Positions 36 through 58,101 of a stretch of DNA of 64,000 nucleotides are shown here, one piece after another (positions within the stretch are counted from its first letter, which is position 1; every line of letters begins with the position of its first letter). The translations under genes and the position numbers were made by a program. The stretch comes from an uncultured Candidatus Melainabacteria bacterium (lineage in GTDB: Bacteria; Cyanobacteriota; Vampirovibrionia; Gastranaerophilales; Gastranaerophilaceae): positions 1 to 64,000 of the forward strand of contig CAMUPF010000001.1 of assembly GCA_947090755.1 (NCBI GenBank), written 5' to 3'. A model generated the notes under the pieces. It was given only the letters and a program-made list of their open reading frames with translations. It did not search any database and was not told the DNA's origin.

Positions 36-43
36 GATTCACA

Positions 44-964
44 ATGGCCGAAATCCTGTTATCCCTTACAATAATTGGTGTGGTTGCGGCGATAACTTTA
101 CCGTCGCTGACCGGTAATATTAACGAGCGCACTTGGAACACGCAGCGTAAAGCACTCTATGCCCGCTTTAGTCAAGCAATCGCGCTAATGCCGGCGTTAA
201 ACGGTTACGGAACATTCACCGAAGGCAACGAATCAATGTCAGCCGTTGACACAGCCGCCGAAACTTTCGTGACAGAAGGTCTTTCAAAAGTCCTTAAAAT
301 TAACAACATTTGCGACAATGAACACCTGGGCGATTGCGGTTTGAACAGTAAAATTACAACAATCAACGGTAGTTATATTAATTTGCCGGTGAAAATATCA
401 GATTTAAACAACGGAATTCCCGAAGGTAACTTAAAAAATACCAAAGCCGCTGCTTTTGAAACGCTTAATGGTGAATCTATTCTAGTATTTTACAACCCGA
501 ATTGTACCTCTGAAGCAGTGGTTTCTTCGGCATTGAGTGCGGATAATTATGCAGGTGTTTATACCAAACAACATCTTTGCGCAAATTTTTTGTATGATTT
601 AAACGGAAACAAAGGTCCTAATACATTCGGTAAGGATATCGGAATTATTGCGGCAATTTATTCTAGTGACTCTAATGTTGTTATGCCTGTTCCCGCCAAA
701 AATTTGAGCGGAACTTATAAACATTCTGAGGCTGGAAGAGCTTGCGCGAATGCAGATTCAGAGTCAAGATTGCCTAATATTGAGGAACTTTTGACATTGT
801 ACTATAATGCAAATTTATTGGATAACTGGGCTGGCAGCGGTTCATACAATTGGTCCTCGACTGTTAGTGACAGTTCTAATGCGTGGGCATTCGGGAAGAC
901 AATGGGGGTAAAATATGCCCGTCCTAAGGATTCAGAATTTACTGTTCAATGTGTTAAGCGATAG
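44..964 (+). CDS. Type IV prepilin-like protein, copy 1 (apparently locked off)
   Basis: The frame encodes the mature part of a large type IV pilin. Codons just before the ATG read G-F-T, so the prepilin peptidase site would be G|FTMAE, and this ATG is residue +3 of the mature protein rather than a natural start. A hydrophobic helix (LTIIGVVAAITLP) and a core shared with three other copies follow. The C-terminus (RLPNIEELL, then YNWSST, then VQCVKR) resembles DUF1566/Lcl_C domains, known from lectin-like surface proteins. An in-frame TGA lies at 11-13 and no start codon occurs between it and 44, so no leader peptide can be attached whatever the length of the upstream C run. It may be a silent cassette or a decayed copy. 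A terminator follows at 973. Confidence 0.75.
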   Translation: MAEILLSLTIIGVVAAITLPSLTGNINERTWNTQRKALYARFSQAIALMPALNGYGTFTEGNESMSAVDTAAETFVTEGLSKVLKINNICDNEHLGDCGLNSKITTINGSYINLPVKISDLNNGIPEGNLKNTKAAAFETLNGESILVFYNPNCTSEAVVSSALSADNYAGVYTKQHLCANFLYDLNGNKGPNTFGKDIGIIAAIYSSDSNVVMPVPAKNLSGTYKHSEAGRACANADSESRLPNIEELLTLYYNANLLDNWAGSGSYNWSSTVSDSSNAWAFGKTMGVKYARPKDSEFTVQCVKR

Positions 965-33103: not shown

Positions 33104-33143
33104 ATGAACAAGAAAGTATTAAGTTTATGCGGGGGGGGGGGGG
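33104..33143 (+). repeat. Prepilin leader start and 13-G slippage tract (copy 2, OFF)
   Basis: ATG at 33104 with AAAGGA site; codons MNKKVLSLC run into 13 G (33131-33143). In this length the frame ends MNKKVLSLCGGGGVFS-stop. With 12 G the leader continues through NRSSCA to FTMAE in frame. The pilin gene is therefore OFF by one base. Confidence 0.8.
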
Positions 33144-33176
33144 TGTTTTCTTAACCGGTCGTCTTGCGCATTCACG

Positions 33177-34106
33177 ATGGCCGAAATCCTGTTATCCCTA
33201 ACAATCATCGGTGTGGTCGCTGCGATAACACTTCCGTCGCTGACCGGCAATATTAATGAACGCACTTGGAATACGCAAAGAAAAGCTTTATATGCGCGTA
33301 TGTCGCAGGCAATAGCCCTAATGCCTGCGTTGAATGGATACGGAACTTTGACCGAAGACGAAAATAAAAGCGTTACTGCAGACACCGCGGCCGAAACCTT
33401 CGTCACCGAAGGTCTGAGCAAAGTTCTAAAAATCAATAATATCTGTGACAGTGACCACCTTGCGGACTGTGGTATGCCCGCTAAAATTACGGCGTTAAAC
33501 GGTAGTATTCCTTATTCCTCCTTCCCGAAAACTCTTGTTCAATTTAACGGAAGTTTTAATATGTCTTTTACAAGCGGGTATTGGTCACAGTTTAGTTATT
33601 CACAGACCGATACAAAAGCCGCGGCGTTTGAAACCGTTAACGGTGAATCAATTGCTGTGTTTTATAATCCGCGCTGTCAGCAAAAAACCGAAGGGGCAGG
33701 GTATTATGTGGGGCCTAAAATGTGTGCCAATTTTGTCTATGACTTGAACGGGGCTAAAGGGCCAAATACTGTTGGTAAGGATATTGGATTTATTACGGCT
33801 CTTTATCCTTCTGATTCTGTCGTTGTAGCACCAATGCCTTTGAATCGTTCACCGGGTAGGGCACCGCAAAAGAATGCGTCTGCAATGTGTTATAATTTTG
33901 ATTCAGAAAGCAGAATGCCAAATAACGAAGAATTAATGTCAATTTTTTATAATAAACCTTTGGTTGGCGAAGGCCAATATTACGATACTTGGTCAAATGA
34001 TTTATACAATGATATTTATACTGCATACAGTATGCATTTATTGACCGGTAAAATGAATGTGCGTGAACGCAATCATGACGACGTAGTTCTCTGCATAAGA
34101 CGCTAA
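33177..34106 (+). CDS. Type IV prepilin-like protein, copy 2 (phase OFF)
   Basis: Coordinates give the frame from mature residue +3. The true start should be 33104, out of frame by one G. With 12 G the preprotein would have a 22-residue leader ending in Ala (A|FTMAE), whereas the other copies have Gly; Ala at -1 is usually processed less well. The conserved helix and core (NINERTWNTQRKALYARMSQ, AAAFETVNGESIAVFYNP, CANFVYDLNGAKGPNT) are followed by a variable tail with SRMPNNEELMSIFYN and a final LCIRR, DUF1566-like. A terminator follows at 34108. The tail differs strongly from the other three copies. Confidence 0.8.
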   Translation: MAEILLSLTIIGVVAAITLPSLTGNINERTWNTQRKALYARMSQAIALMPALNGYGTLTEDENKSVTADTAAETFVTEGLSKVLKINNICDSDHLADCGMPAKITALNGSIPYSSFPKTLVQFNGSFNMSFTSGYWSQFSYSQTDTKAAAFETVNGESIAVFYNPRCQQKTEGAGYYVGPKMCANFVYDLNGAKGPNTVGKDIGFITALYPSDSVVVAPMPLNRSPGRAPQKNASAMCYNFDSESRMPNNEELMSIFYNKPLVGEGQYYDTWSNDLYNDIYTAYSMHLLTGKMNVRERNHDDVVLCIRR

Positions 34107-36141: not shown

Positions 36142-36184
36142 ATGAAAAACGGTATTGTAAGTATTTATGCAGGGGGGGGGGGGG
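36142..36184 (+). repeat. Prepilin leader start and 13-G slippage tract (copy 3, OFF)
   Basis: ATG at 36142 with a strong AGAAAGGA site; codons MKNGIVSIYA run into 13 G (36172-36184). At this length the frame ends in GGGGASLR-stop. With 12 G it continues into the pilin. Confidence 0.8.
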
Positions 36185-37240
36185 CCTCTCTTAGGTAAAG
36201 TGAGTGGGGCGTTCGCGCCTAATGTCATGCTGAACTTGTTTCAGCATCTATCCCGTGTTGCGTCATTGGACAGATCCCGAAACAAGTTCGGGATGACGAT
36301 AAAAGGATTCACAATGGCGGAAATCCTTTTATCCCTAACAATCATCGGGGTGGTTGCTGCGATAACATTGCCGAGTTTGACCGGTAATATTAACGAACGC
36401 ACTTGGAACACGCAGCGAAAAGCGCTTTATGCAAGATTTAGTCAGGCTATCGCGCTAATGCCGGCACTAAATGGTTACGGAACTTTGGCCGAAGGCAACG
36501 AGTCAACGTCAGCCGTAGACACGGCCGCTGAAACCTTCGTCACCGAAGGCTTATCAAAAGTTTTGAAGATTAACAACATTTGTGATTCTGAAAATTTACA
36601 GGATTGTGGGCTGGCAAGCAAAATAACACTTTTGAACGGCTCAACAAAAGCTTTCCCGAAAAAAATGAGTGAGTTAAACTCTTTGTTGACAAGTAATTCG
36701 TTAATGTTTGACACAAAAGCGGCAGCGTTTGAAACTCAAAACGGGGAAAGCATTGCGGTTTTTTATAATCCGAACTGTACTTCGGATATGAATGAAACTT
36801 CGGATTTTTATTCACAGCCTAAAATGTGCGCCAACTTTATCTATGACTTGAACGGTAGTAAAGGTCCTAACACTTTTGGCAAAGATTTGTGGATAATGAC
36901 GGCATTATATTCTTCTGATAGTGTTGTGGTTGCACCAGTTTCTACCACTTCGGATACAGCAACTCCTTCTGCAATTCAAATGTCGATGAATATTAACAAA
37001 AAATGTACAGCTATAGACAGCGATAGCAGATTACCAAATAGAGAAGAATTGGCTTCGCTATTTTATAATAAAGATTTAGTGACATTTAAGTCCTCAGTAG
37101 GCAACACTCCGGAAGATTTTTGGGCGGCACCTGTACAACCAACTTCAAGTACGGCATTCTGTTTACGCTTAAGTACCGGTAAATGGCTTCTGGGGTGTAC
37201 TGCTGGAAATGGTAGTGTTCGCTGTGTGAAACGCTGGTAA
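36167..37240 (+). CDS. Type IV prepilin-like protein, copy 3 (phase OFF from its main start)
   Basis: The listed frame starts at an internal ATG (36167) that lies just before the G run and is in frame at 13 G, but it has no ribosome site. The proper start is 36142. With 12 G the leader would be 55 residues ending in G|FTMAE, long for a prepilin; about 25 of these residues are encoded by a palindromic repeat (36224-36297). The conserved helix and core follow. The tail has SRLPNREELASLFYN, FCLRLSTGKW and SVRCVKRW, DUF1566-like. Slippage could thus switch between strong and weak starts rather than fully on/off. A kinase gene starts 35 nt downstream. Confidence 0.8.
   Translation: MQGGGGPLLGKVSGAFAPNVMLNLFQHLSRVASLDRSRNKFGMTIKGFTMAEILLSLTIIGVVAAITLPSLTGNINERTWNTQRKALYARFSQAIALMPALNGYGTLAEGNESTSAVDTAAETFVTEGLSKVLKINNICDSENLQDCGLASKITLLNGSTKAFPKKMSELNSLLTSNSLMFDTKAAAFETQNGESIAVFYNPNCTSDMNETSDFYSQPKMCANFIYDLNGSKGPNTFGKDLWIMTALYSSDSVVVAPVSTTSDTATPSAIQMSMNINKKCTAIDSDSRLPNREELASLFYNKDLVTFKSSVGNTPEDFWAAPVQPTSSTAFCLRLSTGKWLLGCTAGNGSVRCVKRW
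36224..36297. repeat. Palindromic repeat element inside the copy 3 leader
   Basis: Two 26-nt imperfect inverted arms (36224-36249 and 36272-36297), each itself a hairpin (GCTGAA/TTTCAGC and CCCGAA/TTCGGG) with an AACTTGTT-type centre. This is a REP-like type I recognise as common in bacterial genomes. It is translated in frame in the ON state. Confidence 0.75.
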
Positions 37241-41957: not shown

Positions 41958-42206
41958 TTATATAGAATTTAGTCCGGGGCTTGAACATCTCACTCTTGTA
42001 TGTTAGAATGTTATTGCTCAGGGCGGATGTTAATTTTGTTCCTACATTTTTTATAAACGGGAGAATTGACTCTGACGAACCCGAAGTATACCCGCCGATT
42101 TTTTAATCGCCAGCGGGAAACGGAATGGTTCGAGGCGTTCACCCACCTGCGAGACCAGCAGGTAACAAAATCGCGTCCGCTTCGGGCTTTTATTTTATTT
42201 TTACTT

Positions 42207-54619: not shown

Positions 54620-54625
54620 TTTGCC

Positions 54626-54654
54626 TTGACATGAATAAAAACATGGTACATAAT
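54626..54654 (+). promoter_or_regulatory. Promoter of pilin copy 4
   Basis: TTGACA (54626-54631), 17-nt spacer, CATAAT (54649-54654). Differs from the copy 3 promoter by one base (ATGGTA for ATGTTA). Confidence 0.75.
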
Positions 54655-54667
54655 GAGGGTAAATGAA

Positions 54668-54726
54668 AGGAGTGGCTGAGCCACCTCTATAATTGAACCC
54701 GAGTGAAACTTGGGAGAAAGGAAATT
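54668..54726 (+). promoter_or_regulatory. Structured 5'UTR of pilin copy 4
   Basis: Hairpin 1 GTGGC-TGA-GCCAC (54672-54684) and hairpin 2 CCCGAGT-GAA-ACTTGGG (54698-54714), then GAGAAAGGA. Hairpin 1 keeps its loop and stem length while four of five base pairs differ from copy 3. Confidence 0.65.
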
Positions 54727-54768
54727 ATGAAAAACGATATTGTAAACATGTATGCAGGGGGGGGGGGG
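54727..54768 (+). repeat. Prepilin leader start and 12-G slippage tract (copy 4, ON)
   Basis: MKNDIVNMYA followed by 12 G (54757-54768), read as four Gly. The frame continues without a stop into the pilin, so this copy is in the expressed phase. Confidence 0.85.
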
Positions 54769-55881
54769 AGCCCTGAGCAGAGCCACGAAGTAGTTTCCGA
54801 ACGTCAATTGAGCGGAAACTACGAAGAGTCGAGCGCGCGACGGGCGAAACCGCGCTTTCGGCCGCAAGCGCGAGCGTTGGCGTTTAACGCGAAGGGCGGA
54901 GAGCCGGCGAGTCATGGTTTCACTATGGCCGAAATCCTGTTATCCCTCACAATAATCGGCGTAGTTGCGGCGATAACTTTGCCATCATTGACCGGCAATA
55001 TTAATGAACGCACATGGAATACACAACGCAAAGCGTTGTATGCAAGATTCAGTCAGGCAATCGCACTTATGCCGGCGTTGAACGGTTATGGAACTCTGGT
55101 AGAAGGTAATGATTCAACCTCTGCCGTTGACACCGCCGCAGAAACTTTCGTCACGGAAGGCCTAAGTAAAGTTCTAAAAATTAACAACATTTGTGACAGC
55201 GAACACCTTGAAGACTGTGGTATTCCATCAAAAATCACGCCATTGGATGGCGGTACGGCTAATGGTGGACCATTAGATTTGAATAATATCAAAACTTTAG
55301 TTGGTTTCAATGATATGTTCAACGGAACATCTGTTGATCCAAATAATTCTGCGAGTTTTACTTATCGGCAATTAGATACAAAAGCCGCAGCCTTTGAAAC
55401 TCAGAATGGTGAAAGTATTTTGACCTATTATAATCCTAATTGTGCCGGTTATGTACAACAAGATTCTATCGCATGGCATTATACTCAGTCTAATATGTGT
55501 GCGAATTTTGTTTATGATTTAAACGGCTCTAAAGGTCCGAATACGGTAGGCAAAGATATCGGTTTTATTTCTGTAATGTATCCAACGGATTCGCTTGTGG
55601 TTGCGCCAGTTCCGTTGGCTAGAAATGCGGGTCTTGCCACCCCTATGGAAGCTTTAAGTCTATGCAAGGCGCAAGACCCTGATAGCAGGCTGCCAAATCA
55701 GAGTGAGTTGATATCTATGTTTTATAATAGAAAGTTGCTGGGTATTCATTGGGGGTATTATAATTCAGGTACTGTAACAATGAGAAACGGTGTAAGGACT
55801 ACTTGGTTTGTTAATCTGGGCACAGGTCACACCGGTGGCGGCACAGCACAAGATTTCTATATCCGCTGTGTAAAGCGTTGA
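54727..55881 (+). CDS. Type IV prepilin-like protein, copy 4 (phase ON)
   Basis: The only copy whose leader and pilin are joined in frame. 384 aa: leader 1-64, cleavage at G64|F65TMAE, hydrophobic helix ~68-90, shared core (NERTWNTQRKALYARFSQAI, LSKVLKINNICD, CANFVYDLNGSKGPNT) and a variable tail with SRLPNQSELISMFYN and IRCVKR, DUF1566-like. The 64-residue leader is far longer than typical prepilin leaders (about 6-30). It contains an Arg-rich segment from a GC-rich insertion (ARRAKPRFRPQARALAFN). The ATG at 54727 has AGAAAGGA upstream, while a start at 54703 would lack one. The mature protein (~320 aa) is large for a pilin, suggesting a minor or tip pilin with a binding domain. Followed by a terminator. 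Confidence 0.88.
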   Translation: MKNDIVNMYAGGGGSPEQSHEVVSERQLSGNYEESSARRAKPRFRPQARALAFNAKGGEPASHGFTMAEILLSLTIIGVVAAITLPSLTGNINERTWNTQRKALYARFSQAIALMPALNGYGTLVEGNDSTSAVDTAAETFVTEGLSKVLKINNICDSEHLEDCGIPSKITPLDGGTANGGPLDLNNIKTLVGFNDMFNGTSVDPNNSASFTYRQLDTKAAAFETQNGESILTYYNPNCAGYVQQDSIAWHYTQSNMCANFVYDLNGSKGPNTVGKDIGFISVMYPTDSLVVAPVPLARNAGLATPMEALSLCKAQDPDSRLPNQSELISMFYNRKLLGIHWGYYNSGTVTMRNGVRTTWFVNLGTGHTGGGTAQDFYIRCVKR

Positions 55882-55885
55882 ATGT

Positions 55886-55906
55886 GGGGCGGGAAACCGC
55901 CCTTTT
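55886..55906 (+). terminator. Terminator of pilin copy 4
   Basis: GGGCGG/CCGCCC stem, GAAA loop, TTTT. Confidence 0.8.
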
Positions 55907-55933
55907 GTATACTTTTGTAAATTTCCCTTCCCC

Positions 55934-56351: not shown

Positions 56352-56738
56352 ATGAAAAAGATTTTGATTGTTGACGATGAACAGGATATTGTTGAGAGTT
56401 TGAAATTTGTGCTTGAAATAGCCAATTATACCTGTTATTGCGCTTATAACGGCGAAGATGGCCTGCGTATGGCCAAAGAAATCGTGCCGGATTTGATTAT
56501 TCTTGACGTAATGATGCCGAAAATTAACGGGTTTAAGATTAGCCGCCTGCTTAAATTTGATAGTAAATATAAAGATATTCCGATTTTAATGCTGACGGCG
56601 CGTTCTCAAATGGAGGACAAACTCATTGGCGAAGAAACAGGCGTTAACGAATACATTACAAAACCGTTTGATTTAGATGATGTCGTAGCAAAAGTTGAAC
56701 AATATCTGGGTGCGCAAAATGCAAGCTGTAACAAATAA
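56352..56738 (+). CDS. Single-domain response regulator (REC)
   Basis: 128-aa receiver only, CheY/Spo0F-like size. ILIVDDEQDIVESL with the acidic pair, phospho-acceptor Asp in LIILDVMMPKING, Thr/Lys in MLTARS and YITKPFDLDDVVAKVEQYL. No output domain, so it acts by protein contact. It overlaps the PilB-like ATPase gene by 20 nt, which points to control of that ATPase or of pilus assembly. Confidence 0.93.
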   Translation: MKKILIVDDEQDIVESLKFVLEIANYTCYCAYNGEDGLRMAKEIVPDLIILDVMMPKINGFKISRLLKFDSKYKDIPILMLTARSQMEDKLIGEETGVNEYITKPFDLDDVVAKVEQYLGAQNASCNK

Positions 56739-58101
56739 AACTCTTGAAAAATTGAAATATGATCTTGTAAGAGAAGGGCTTGTGCCGTTTGATACAGTTA
56801 ATCAGGCGACACAGATTGCACAGTCGCAAAATACGAATATAGGACAGGTCCTTATTAATTCCGGAGTTATTACAGAGGATGCAATTTTGAAGTTTTTGGA
56901 GGAAAAACTTCATATTCCGTTTGTGAATCTTAATGACTATTCACTGGATAAGGATACTTTGAAATATATTTCATATAATGACGCGAAGAAATATAAAATC
57001 TTGCCGCTTTTTAAGATAGAAAATGTCTTGACGGTTGCGATGGCAGATCCGATGGATTTATTCGCAATTGATAAGATTGTAGAAACCGCGGAGTGCTCTA
57101 TTGAGGCGGTAATTGCTTCAGAAAAAGTTGTTCTTGAAAAAATAGATGAATATTATAACGAGAATTCCGGTACTGATAAAATTCTGTCGACATTTGAAAA
57201 TGTTGACCATGATTGGCGCGAAGAACTTCACAGCGATGATTTGAGTGACGCTCATATCCATAAAATTATCAGTTCTATTTTGCGTCAGGCAGTTGTAGAA
57301 AATGTTCACGAAATAATTTTCAGGCTTGAAAATGAGGGATTTGAAGTTACATTTAAGACCCTTAATGAGGTTTTAAATAAAGGAACGATTCCGACTGTAC
57401 TTATGGAATCATTTATCGCCAAGTTGAAAAATCTTGCACAATTAGATTCAACAGTAAGCGAGGTGCCGCAGCTTGGCAAAATAAACTTTGCGATGGGTGA
57501 TTTAACGCTTGTGGCAAGCGTTTCAACCTTCCCTACAATTATGGGCGAAAGAATTTATATCAAACTTTACAAACCGCCAACTTCGTTGCGCGCTCTGGTT
57601 AATTCTGCGAATAATTACAATCTTTTAATTAATTCGTTGAAGGAACCGGGGGTTCTGTTTATATGCGGTTCTCAATTGAGCGGAAAAACGCACCTTATTT
57701 ATTCGCTTTTGAACGAAATTTCTTCTCCGGATAAGAACATTATGACGATTGAAAGCATTACAAAGTACAAACTTCCTAATGTGAACCAGTGTGAACTGAA
57801 TGAAAATGTAGGCTTTAACATGGAAAAAGCTTCAAGGTTTATAGAGTTTCAATCACCGGACATTATCTATCTTGAAGGCATGAAAAACAAAGAAACCTTT
57901 GATTATTTCTCAGAACTTGTATTCAACGACAAGGTTATAATAATGGAATTTTTGGCCAATAATATGGAAGATTTGAGAAATAAAATGGCTTATTCGGATT
58001 TTGAAACCCTGAAATCGTTGATTTCTTGCCTTGTGTTTATTCATTCACAGGACAGTATTGAGGTCTTTGATAAAGAAACCGCGCAAAAGTACTTAGCATA
58101 G
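56719..58101 (+). CDS. Degenerate PilB/GspE-like ATPase
   Basis: 460 aa from ATG 56719. The N-terminal ~150 residues are an MshEN/GspE-N domain (NIGQVLINSGVITEDAILKFLEEKLHIPFVNLND), a fold that binds c-di-GMP in some relatives. The ATPase part (~170-460) keeps a Walker A (GSQLSGKT) but the Walker B region reads PDIIYLEGMKN instead of the usual GE-[IM]-RD. The zinc-binding tetra-cysteine loop and the normal Asp/His boxes are not evident. It is also shorter than PilB (~560 aa). Likely a regulatory or inactive paralogue linked to type IV pili or type II secretion. Cotranscribed with the preceding receiver. Confidence 0.8.
   Translation: MQAVTNKTLEKLKYDLVREGLVPFDTVNQATQIAQSQNTNIGQVLINSGVITEDAILKFLEEKLHIPFVNLNDYSLDKDTLKYISYNDAKKYKILPLFKIENVLTVAMADPMDLFAIDKIVETAECSIEAVIASEKVVLEKIDEYYNENSGTDKILSTFENVDHDWREELHSDDLSDAHIHKIISSILRQAVVENVHEIIFRLENEGFEVTFKTLNEVLNKGTIPTVLMESFIAKLKNLAQLDSTVSEVPQLGKINFAMGDLTLVASVSTFPTIMGERIYIKLYKPPTSLRALVNSANNYNLLINSLKEPGVLFICGSQLSGKTHLIYSLLNEISSPDKNIMTIESITKYKLPNVNQCELNENVGFNMEKASRFIEFQSPDIIYLEGMKNKETFDYFSELVFNDKVIIMEFLANNMEDLRNKMAYSDFETLKSLISCLVFIHSQDSIEVFDKETAQKYLA

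Follow-up and report, generated by a model that had tools for sequence, protein, structure and literature searches.

Organization of the focal cassette

Can a run of 12 G between a short leader and a type IV prepilin act as a translational switch, and does such a switch stand alone in its genome? The question was raised by a locus in the window, the 64,000 nucleotides of DNA analysed here (assembly GCA_947090755.1, contig CAMUPF010000001.1, positions 1-64,000, forward strand), which derive from an uncultured Candidatus Melainabacteria bacterium, a gut organism with cyanobacteria as relatives, with a draft genome of 1.78 Mb in 53 contigs. An earlier note on this DNA had described an ATG at 54727, ten codons, a G12 tract and an open frame to HG|FTMAEILL, and the sequence reads exactly as it was described. 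The note also proposed that slippage in the tract turns the pilin on and off by frame. We consider it very probable that the focal gene belongs to a very large family of phase-variable pilins, in which translation is switched ON and OFF by slipped-strand mispairing. The single switch thus stood as read, but its scope did not: the locus is part of a family of about 120 prepilins rather than a lone one, and the note had overlooked two more G13 copies in the window, a fourth copy at the window start and the about 120 genome-wide (Table 1).

The cassette was read directly for its signals and reading frame. The sequence GGGAGAAAGGAAATT stands ahead of the leader ATG (54727-54729). From the G12 tract the frame stays open to ...SHG|FTMAEILLSL and closes at a stop codon at 55879-55881, encoding a product of 384 aa. 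This product has the F+1 and E+5 of a prepilin peptidase site, and the prepilin models N_methyl and IV_pilin_GFxxxE (TIGR02532, PF07963) both score above their cut-offs on it; therefore the M of MAEIL, the usual start, corresponds to mature residue +3, in agreement with the earlier note. Translation from that methionine, the alternative that the note had set against its own reading, is unlikely because tract-free copies of the gene carry a classical short leader that ends directly before FTM. No Rfam families were found at the focal locus. The possible hairpin in the 5'UTR was considered as a hallmark of the cassettes and rejected, as only 5 of 78 cassettes have one. Shortly downstream, past a response-regulator-like ORF, lies an ORF with a T2SSE-type ATPase region (56695-58101). 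A match to 6S RNA at 42011-42193 was barely over the gathering score.

Table 1. Features of the pilin cassettes in the window.
Feature	Position	Strand	Description or basis
Fourth paralogous pilin	38..964	+	Leader and tract lost beyond the window start
Paralogous cassette	33104..34106	+	Leader ATG 33104; G13 33131-33143 (OFF); pilin from 33171
Paralogous cassette	36142..37240	+	Leader ATG 36142; G13 36172-36184 (OFF); insert; pilin from 36308
Whole focal cassette	54620..55910	+	Missing from the orthologous site of one relative (L141)
Promoter-like TTGACA, 17-bp spacer, CATAAT	54626..54654	+	Read directly from sequence
Possible 5'UTR hairpin CCCGAGT-gaa-ACTTGGG	54698..54714	+	Sequence
Ribosome binding region GGGAGAAAGGA	54712..54722	+	Read directly from sequence
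Leader start, 10 codons MKNDIVNMYA	54727..54756	+	Sequence
G12 tract, exactly 12 G	54757..54768	+	Sequence; in frame (ON) as assembled
G+C-rich repeat-like insert, 150 nt	54769..54918	+	Sequence; frame open through to the cleavage-site Gly
Mature pilin FTMAEILL...CVKR, 320 aa, and stop	54919..55881	+	Profile matches, model
Predicted layout of the mature focal pilin	54919..55881	+	Long N-terminal helix, variable body, Lcl_C / C-type-lectin-like head
Intrinsic-terminator-like GGGCGG-gaaa-CCGCCC-TTTT	55887..55906	+	Read directly from sequence

A genome-wide family of pilin cassettes

The presence of further G tracts was investigated in the window and in the genome. In the window, G8 gave 17 overlapping matches against 0.22 expected, which collapse into three tracts, and all three sit between a leader ATG and a prepilin. 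The G13 tracts at 33131 and 36172 are out of frame and would be in frame at 12 or 15. Across the 1.78-Mb genome we identified 115 tracts with at least 9 G and about 120 N-termini paralogous to that of the focal pilin; chance G runs are ruled out both by these tract numbers and by the G8 counts. Analysis of the stretches around most of the paralogs gave 106 distinct pilin N-termini, and a G tract was present in 84 of them. Tract and start codon were both available for 80 paralogs, in 78 of which a single phase gives an unbroken leader-tract-insert-pilin frame. The tractless copies are mostly interrupted by contig ends; three have classical short leaders (e.g., MKKHSA|FTM) and two have decayed tracts. 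A TTGAC..-10 promoter pattern precedes 64 of the 78 cassettes, and residue -1 of the cleavage site is either A (48) or G (32). All 100 full-length bodies were distinct from each other. By arithmetic, about 120 cassettes of some 1.25 kb amount to an estimated 7-9% of the genome, which also encodes one prepilin peptidase and several pilus-type ATPases.

The inserts between tract and cleavage site differ from the pilins in composition (58% vs. 42% G+C). Several cassettes have inserts in common, in both orientations, yet these are open in the pilin frame: 40 inserts of at least 90 nt (1923 codons) contain 3 stops in the pilin frame, compared with 77 and 106 in the other two frames. DNA related to the focal insert occurs at 38 places in the genome; the possibility of a genome-scattered element was ruled out, since most of these places are upstream of pilins. 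Cassettes that share an insert are no closer in body than random pairs (likeness 0.447 vs. 0.440), and 5' modules have therefore been exchanged between cassettes. In relatives, some inserts place more than 200 residues before the cleavage site, and leaders of genome G009 (L234, L240, L252) are followed, past the G tract, by low-complexity repeats (ALGSxxSxDADL...).

Reading frames and assembled states

Tract lengths are consensus calls from draft assemblies, in which homopolymers are error-prone, and the paralogs and orthologs are non-independent samples; on this basis, 16 of the 80 source-genome paralogs are in frame as assembled, 7 are one G short and 57 have one G too many. The corresponding counts are 8, 2 and 39 in sister species G001 and 7, 3 and 29 in G003, which pool with the source genome to 31, 11 and 124 (ON in 31 of 166). 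The commonest length is one above ON, that is, 13 for an ON length of 12, 12 for one of 11, and 11 or 14 for one of 10 or 13. As this excess occurs at every ON length, the distribution tracks the reading frame and not the length as such, which indicates selection or a frame-dependent effect on expression. The bias of ON+1 over ON-1 (124 vs. 11) is unexplained by simple symmetric slippage. A poised OFF state may be under selection or, alternatively, the bias may stem from low-level expression via slippage. The pilins are under purifying selection in both states: across the N-terminal 56 codons dN/dS was about 0.036 in OFF copies and ON copies alike, with dS at about 1.7 and synonymous sites thus near saturation. 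A ratio this low, and equal to that of the ON copies, argues that the OFF copies are not decaying.

Variation between species

The earlier note had called for tract lengths to be counted across related genomes. Orthologous tract sites were paired by their upstream flanks, which gives comparisons between species rather than strains. Tract length was unequal in 39 of 78 orthologous pairs, and some of these pairs differed in ON/OFF state. Among the G001/G003 pairs with flank identity of at least 95%, four of ten were unequal in length, including 12 (ON) vs. 14 (OFF) and 13 (ON) vs. 14 (OFF), the latter with 97% identical flanks. Paralogs and orthologs are two natural comparisons, and both support a putative on/off switch by slippage. 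Whole cassettes have also been gained or lost, as 5 of 16 site comparisons with both flanks matchable found the relative empty, the focal site included. A scan with the flanking nucleotidase recovered two named relatives only. JAMPIJ010000021.1 (L142), titled Fusobacterium sp., encodes an ortholog of the flanking nucleotidase at 82% identity together with a G12 leader, and appears to be mislabelled.

Distribution across the family

Of the six genus mates, five had 87-127 tracts of G10 and one, G005, had none. That genome has only 18 pilins, the best-matching of which starts with a classical leader. Counts of up to 72-88 G10 tracts occur in some other genera of the family, compared with 0-3 outside it. 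The same layout was also seen in no fewer than four further genera of the family (G042, G018, G012 and G040), where the tracts are again located between a short leader and a prepilin; their leaders are unrelated in sequence and their ON lengths are other ones, with pooled states of 3 ON and 24 OFF. Tracts of genus g35 (G042) are most often one G short of ON (10 vs. 11). Genomes G013, G047 and G017, likewise from outside the genus but within the family, carry at least 80 such pilins and almost no G tracts. Pilin expansion and the switch are therefore separable.

Predicted structure of the mature pilin

An AlphaFold2 model built from 62 paralogs (mean pLDDT 88, pTM 0.85) predicted a helix at residues 3-50, with residues 11-30 modelled at lower confidence, and a beta-rich head. 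With the C-terminal part as query, the best Foldseek match was the C-terminal domain of Legionella Lcl (a modest E of 1.5e-3, probability 1.00), followed by C-type lectins; no match to the head was found at E 0.001 or below. The profile Lcl_C (PF07603) matched 42 of the 62 members at E up to 0.05 (best 6.5e-8), the window copy being under the gathering score. Sequence entropy is 0.01 bits over residues 1-20 and climbs to about 2.7 over residues 281-320. Taken from the model and profiles, the mature pilins probably consist of a pilin helix that does not vary and a body that becomes more variable toward its end, a predicted C-type-lectin-like (Lcl_C) head.

Proposed mechanism and alternatives

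In the proposed mechanism each cassette is a separate transcription unit, usually with a recognisable promoter followed by a ribosome site. It continues through a leader of 9-16 codons, about 11-14 G and an insert of roughly 3-85 codons to the site [GA]|FTMAE, after which come the invariant pilin helix, the variable body and the C-type-lectin-like head. Slipped-strand mispairing within a clone would alter the G count; one length in three would link leader to pilin (ON), and the remaining lengths would yield a short peptide (OFF). Prepilin peptidase would remove tract and insert, and because both are cut off, all ON lengths would give an identical mature pilin. The cleaved pilins would be assembled into pili or a pseudopilus, as major pilins, minor pilins or pseudopilins, and from a mostly-OFF stock of about 120 genes each cell would display only a few heads at a time, in a set that changes. 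A loss of mismatch repair was ruled out as the origin of the tracts by the presence of MutS_I, which was found in the source genome and in 24 of the 26 genomes searched; with regard to slippage rate, this finding was counted against the mechanism proposed here. A broader reading, to which we give slightly less than an even chance, is that a family of gut bacteria keeps up a combinatorial repertoire at the cell surface. Some hundred lectin-headed pilins, mostly one G from ON, would be sampled independently by slippage in a disposable leader, and the OFF-by-one state would be selected. Each cell would present a set of lectin-like specificities of its own toward host, phage or food glycans, a variation that may be of advantage.

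The frame bias also permits a reading in which the tract is not mainly an on/off device, copies with one G too many being weakly expressed through backward slippage, by one base on the G run, of either RNA polymerase or the ribosome. The +1 frame is indeed the most frequent one across the three species and at each ON length, as a functional basal state would be, but G042, with its preference for one G short, would require the opposite slippage, and this argues against such expression as a general mechanism. Orthologous tracts also change in length and state, and overall we regard this reading as improbable. The OFF copies could also serve chiefly as silent donors, an archive from which gene conversion carries sequence into ON copies as from Neisseria pilS into pilE, with the tracts secondary. 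This would agree with the recombination of 5' modules and bodies seen among insert-sharing cassettes. The pilE/pilS arrangement, however, has silent partial donors and one expression locus, whereas the copies here are full length with their own promoters; the OFF copies retain a ribosome site, an entire ORF and an intact pilin N-terminus as constrained as that of the ON copies, and in place of a single expression site there are 16 ON copies. An archive is improbable as their main role. It is very improbable that the tract encodes a fixed linker of glycines and varies in length through assembly error. The assemblies are drafts with error-prone homopolymers, and several contigs end at tracts, yet error would imply that most copies are frameshifted across several genomes that were assembled separately, and with a preference tied to frame. 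G005, moreover, has pilins without tracts, and since the tract sits in the cleaved-off part, no linker would remain in the mature protein. Translational phase variation by slipped-strand mispairing remains the explanation that we prefer.

Relation to known systems

Phase-variable lipoprotein families of the vlhA type in mycoplasmas have many paralogs, each with its own repeat-controlled expression. The vlhA products are lipoproteins with promoter-side repeats, unlike the prepilins and translational G tract described here. Poly-G/C contingency loci in Campylobacter comprise 5-81 phase-variable genes per strain (PMC6321876) and likewise combine frame-dependent ON/OFF states, many switches per small genome and long G runs in surface genes close to their 5' end; in contrast, most tracts here serve one paralogous pilin family and are located in the part that would be cleaved off. 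Neisseria has poly-G switching of pilC, pilE/pilS antigenic variation and pilS tracts (PMC5953494). A pilus under G-tract frameshifting, pilin diversity and recombination among copies are common to both systems, but pilC is not a pilin and the pilS copies are silent donors, whereas the about 120 pilins here are full genes, nearly every one with a putative switch of its own. The Neisseria meningitidis phasome, with 115 genes confirmed variable by deep sequencing (PMC5084427), is comparable in switch number, here read from assemblies, and differs in comprising diverse genes and repeat types rather than one dominant family. The predicted head would belong to the same fold family as the Legionella Lcl C-terminal domain, DUF1566 (PMC11162425), and as the DUF1566 targets of diversity-generating retroelements, in a study that mentions putative pilins (PMC6642488). 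Variation is concentrated in the C-type-lectin-like domain of these targets and in the predicted one here; unlike theirs, it is spread here across standing paralogs that tract slippage would sample.

The individual elements thus have precedents, and their scale and placement appear undescribed in the literature searched. The earlier note knew of no description in the Melainabacteria lineage; likewise, no report of phase variation of this kind in Melainabacteria, Gastranaerophilales or Vampirovibrionia was found in the open-licence literature searched. If the proposed mechanism is correct, an estimated 7-9% of a 1.8-Mb gut genome would be devoted to independently switchable pilins, with the mutable tract confined to a removable leader. 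Diversification would proceed by standing paralogs and slippage on a head fold that retroelements diversify elsewhere. It would also explain why draft assemblies break at pilins and why such genes would be called as truncated or with a wrong start.

Long G tracts were also observed in genes other than pilins. Tracts of G13-G15 at L095:1012, L096:1055 and L096:2166 lie in non-pilin genes that are possibly phase-variable, with acyltransferase-like and hexapeptide-transferase-like products and a 205-aa ORF without a Pfam hit. Tracts of G12 and G14 at L061:1050 and L062 (minus strand) are located near the 5' ends of two genes encoding unrelated proteins of ~525-534 aa.
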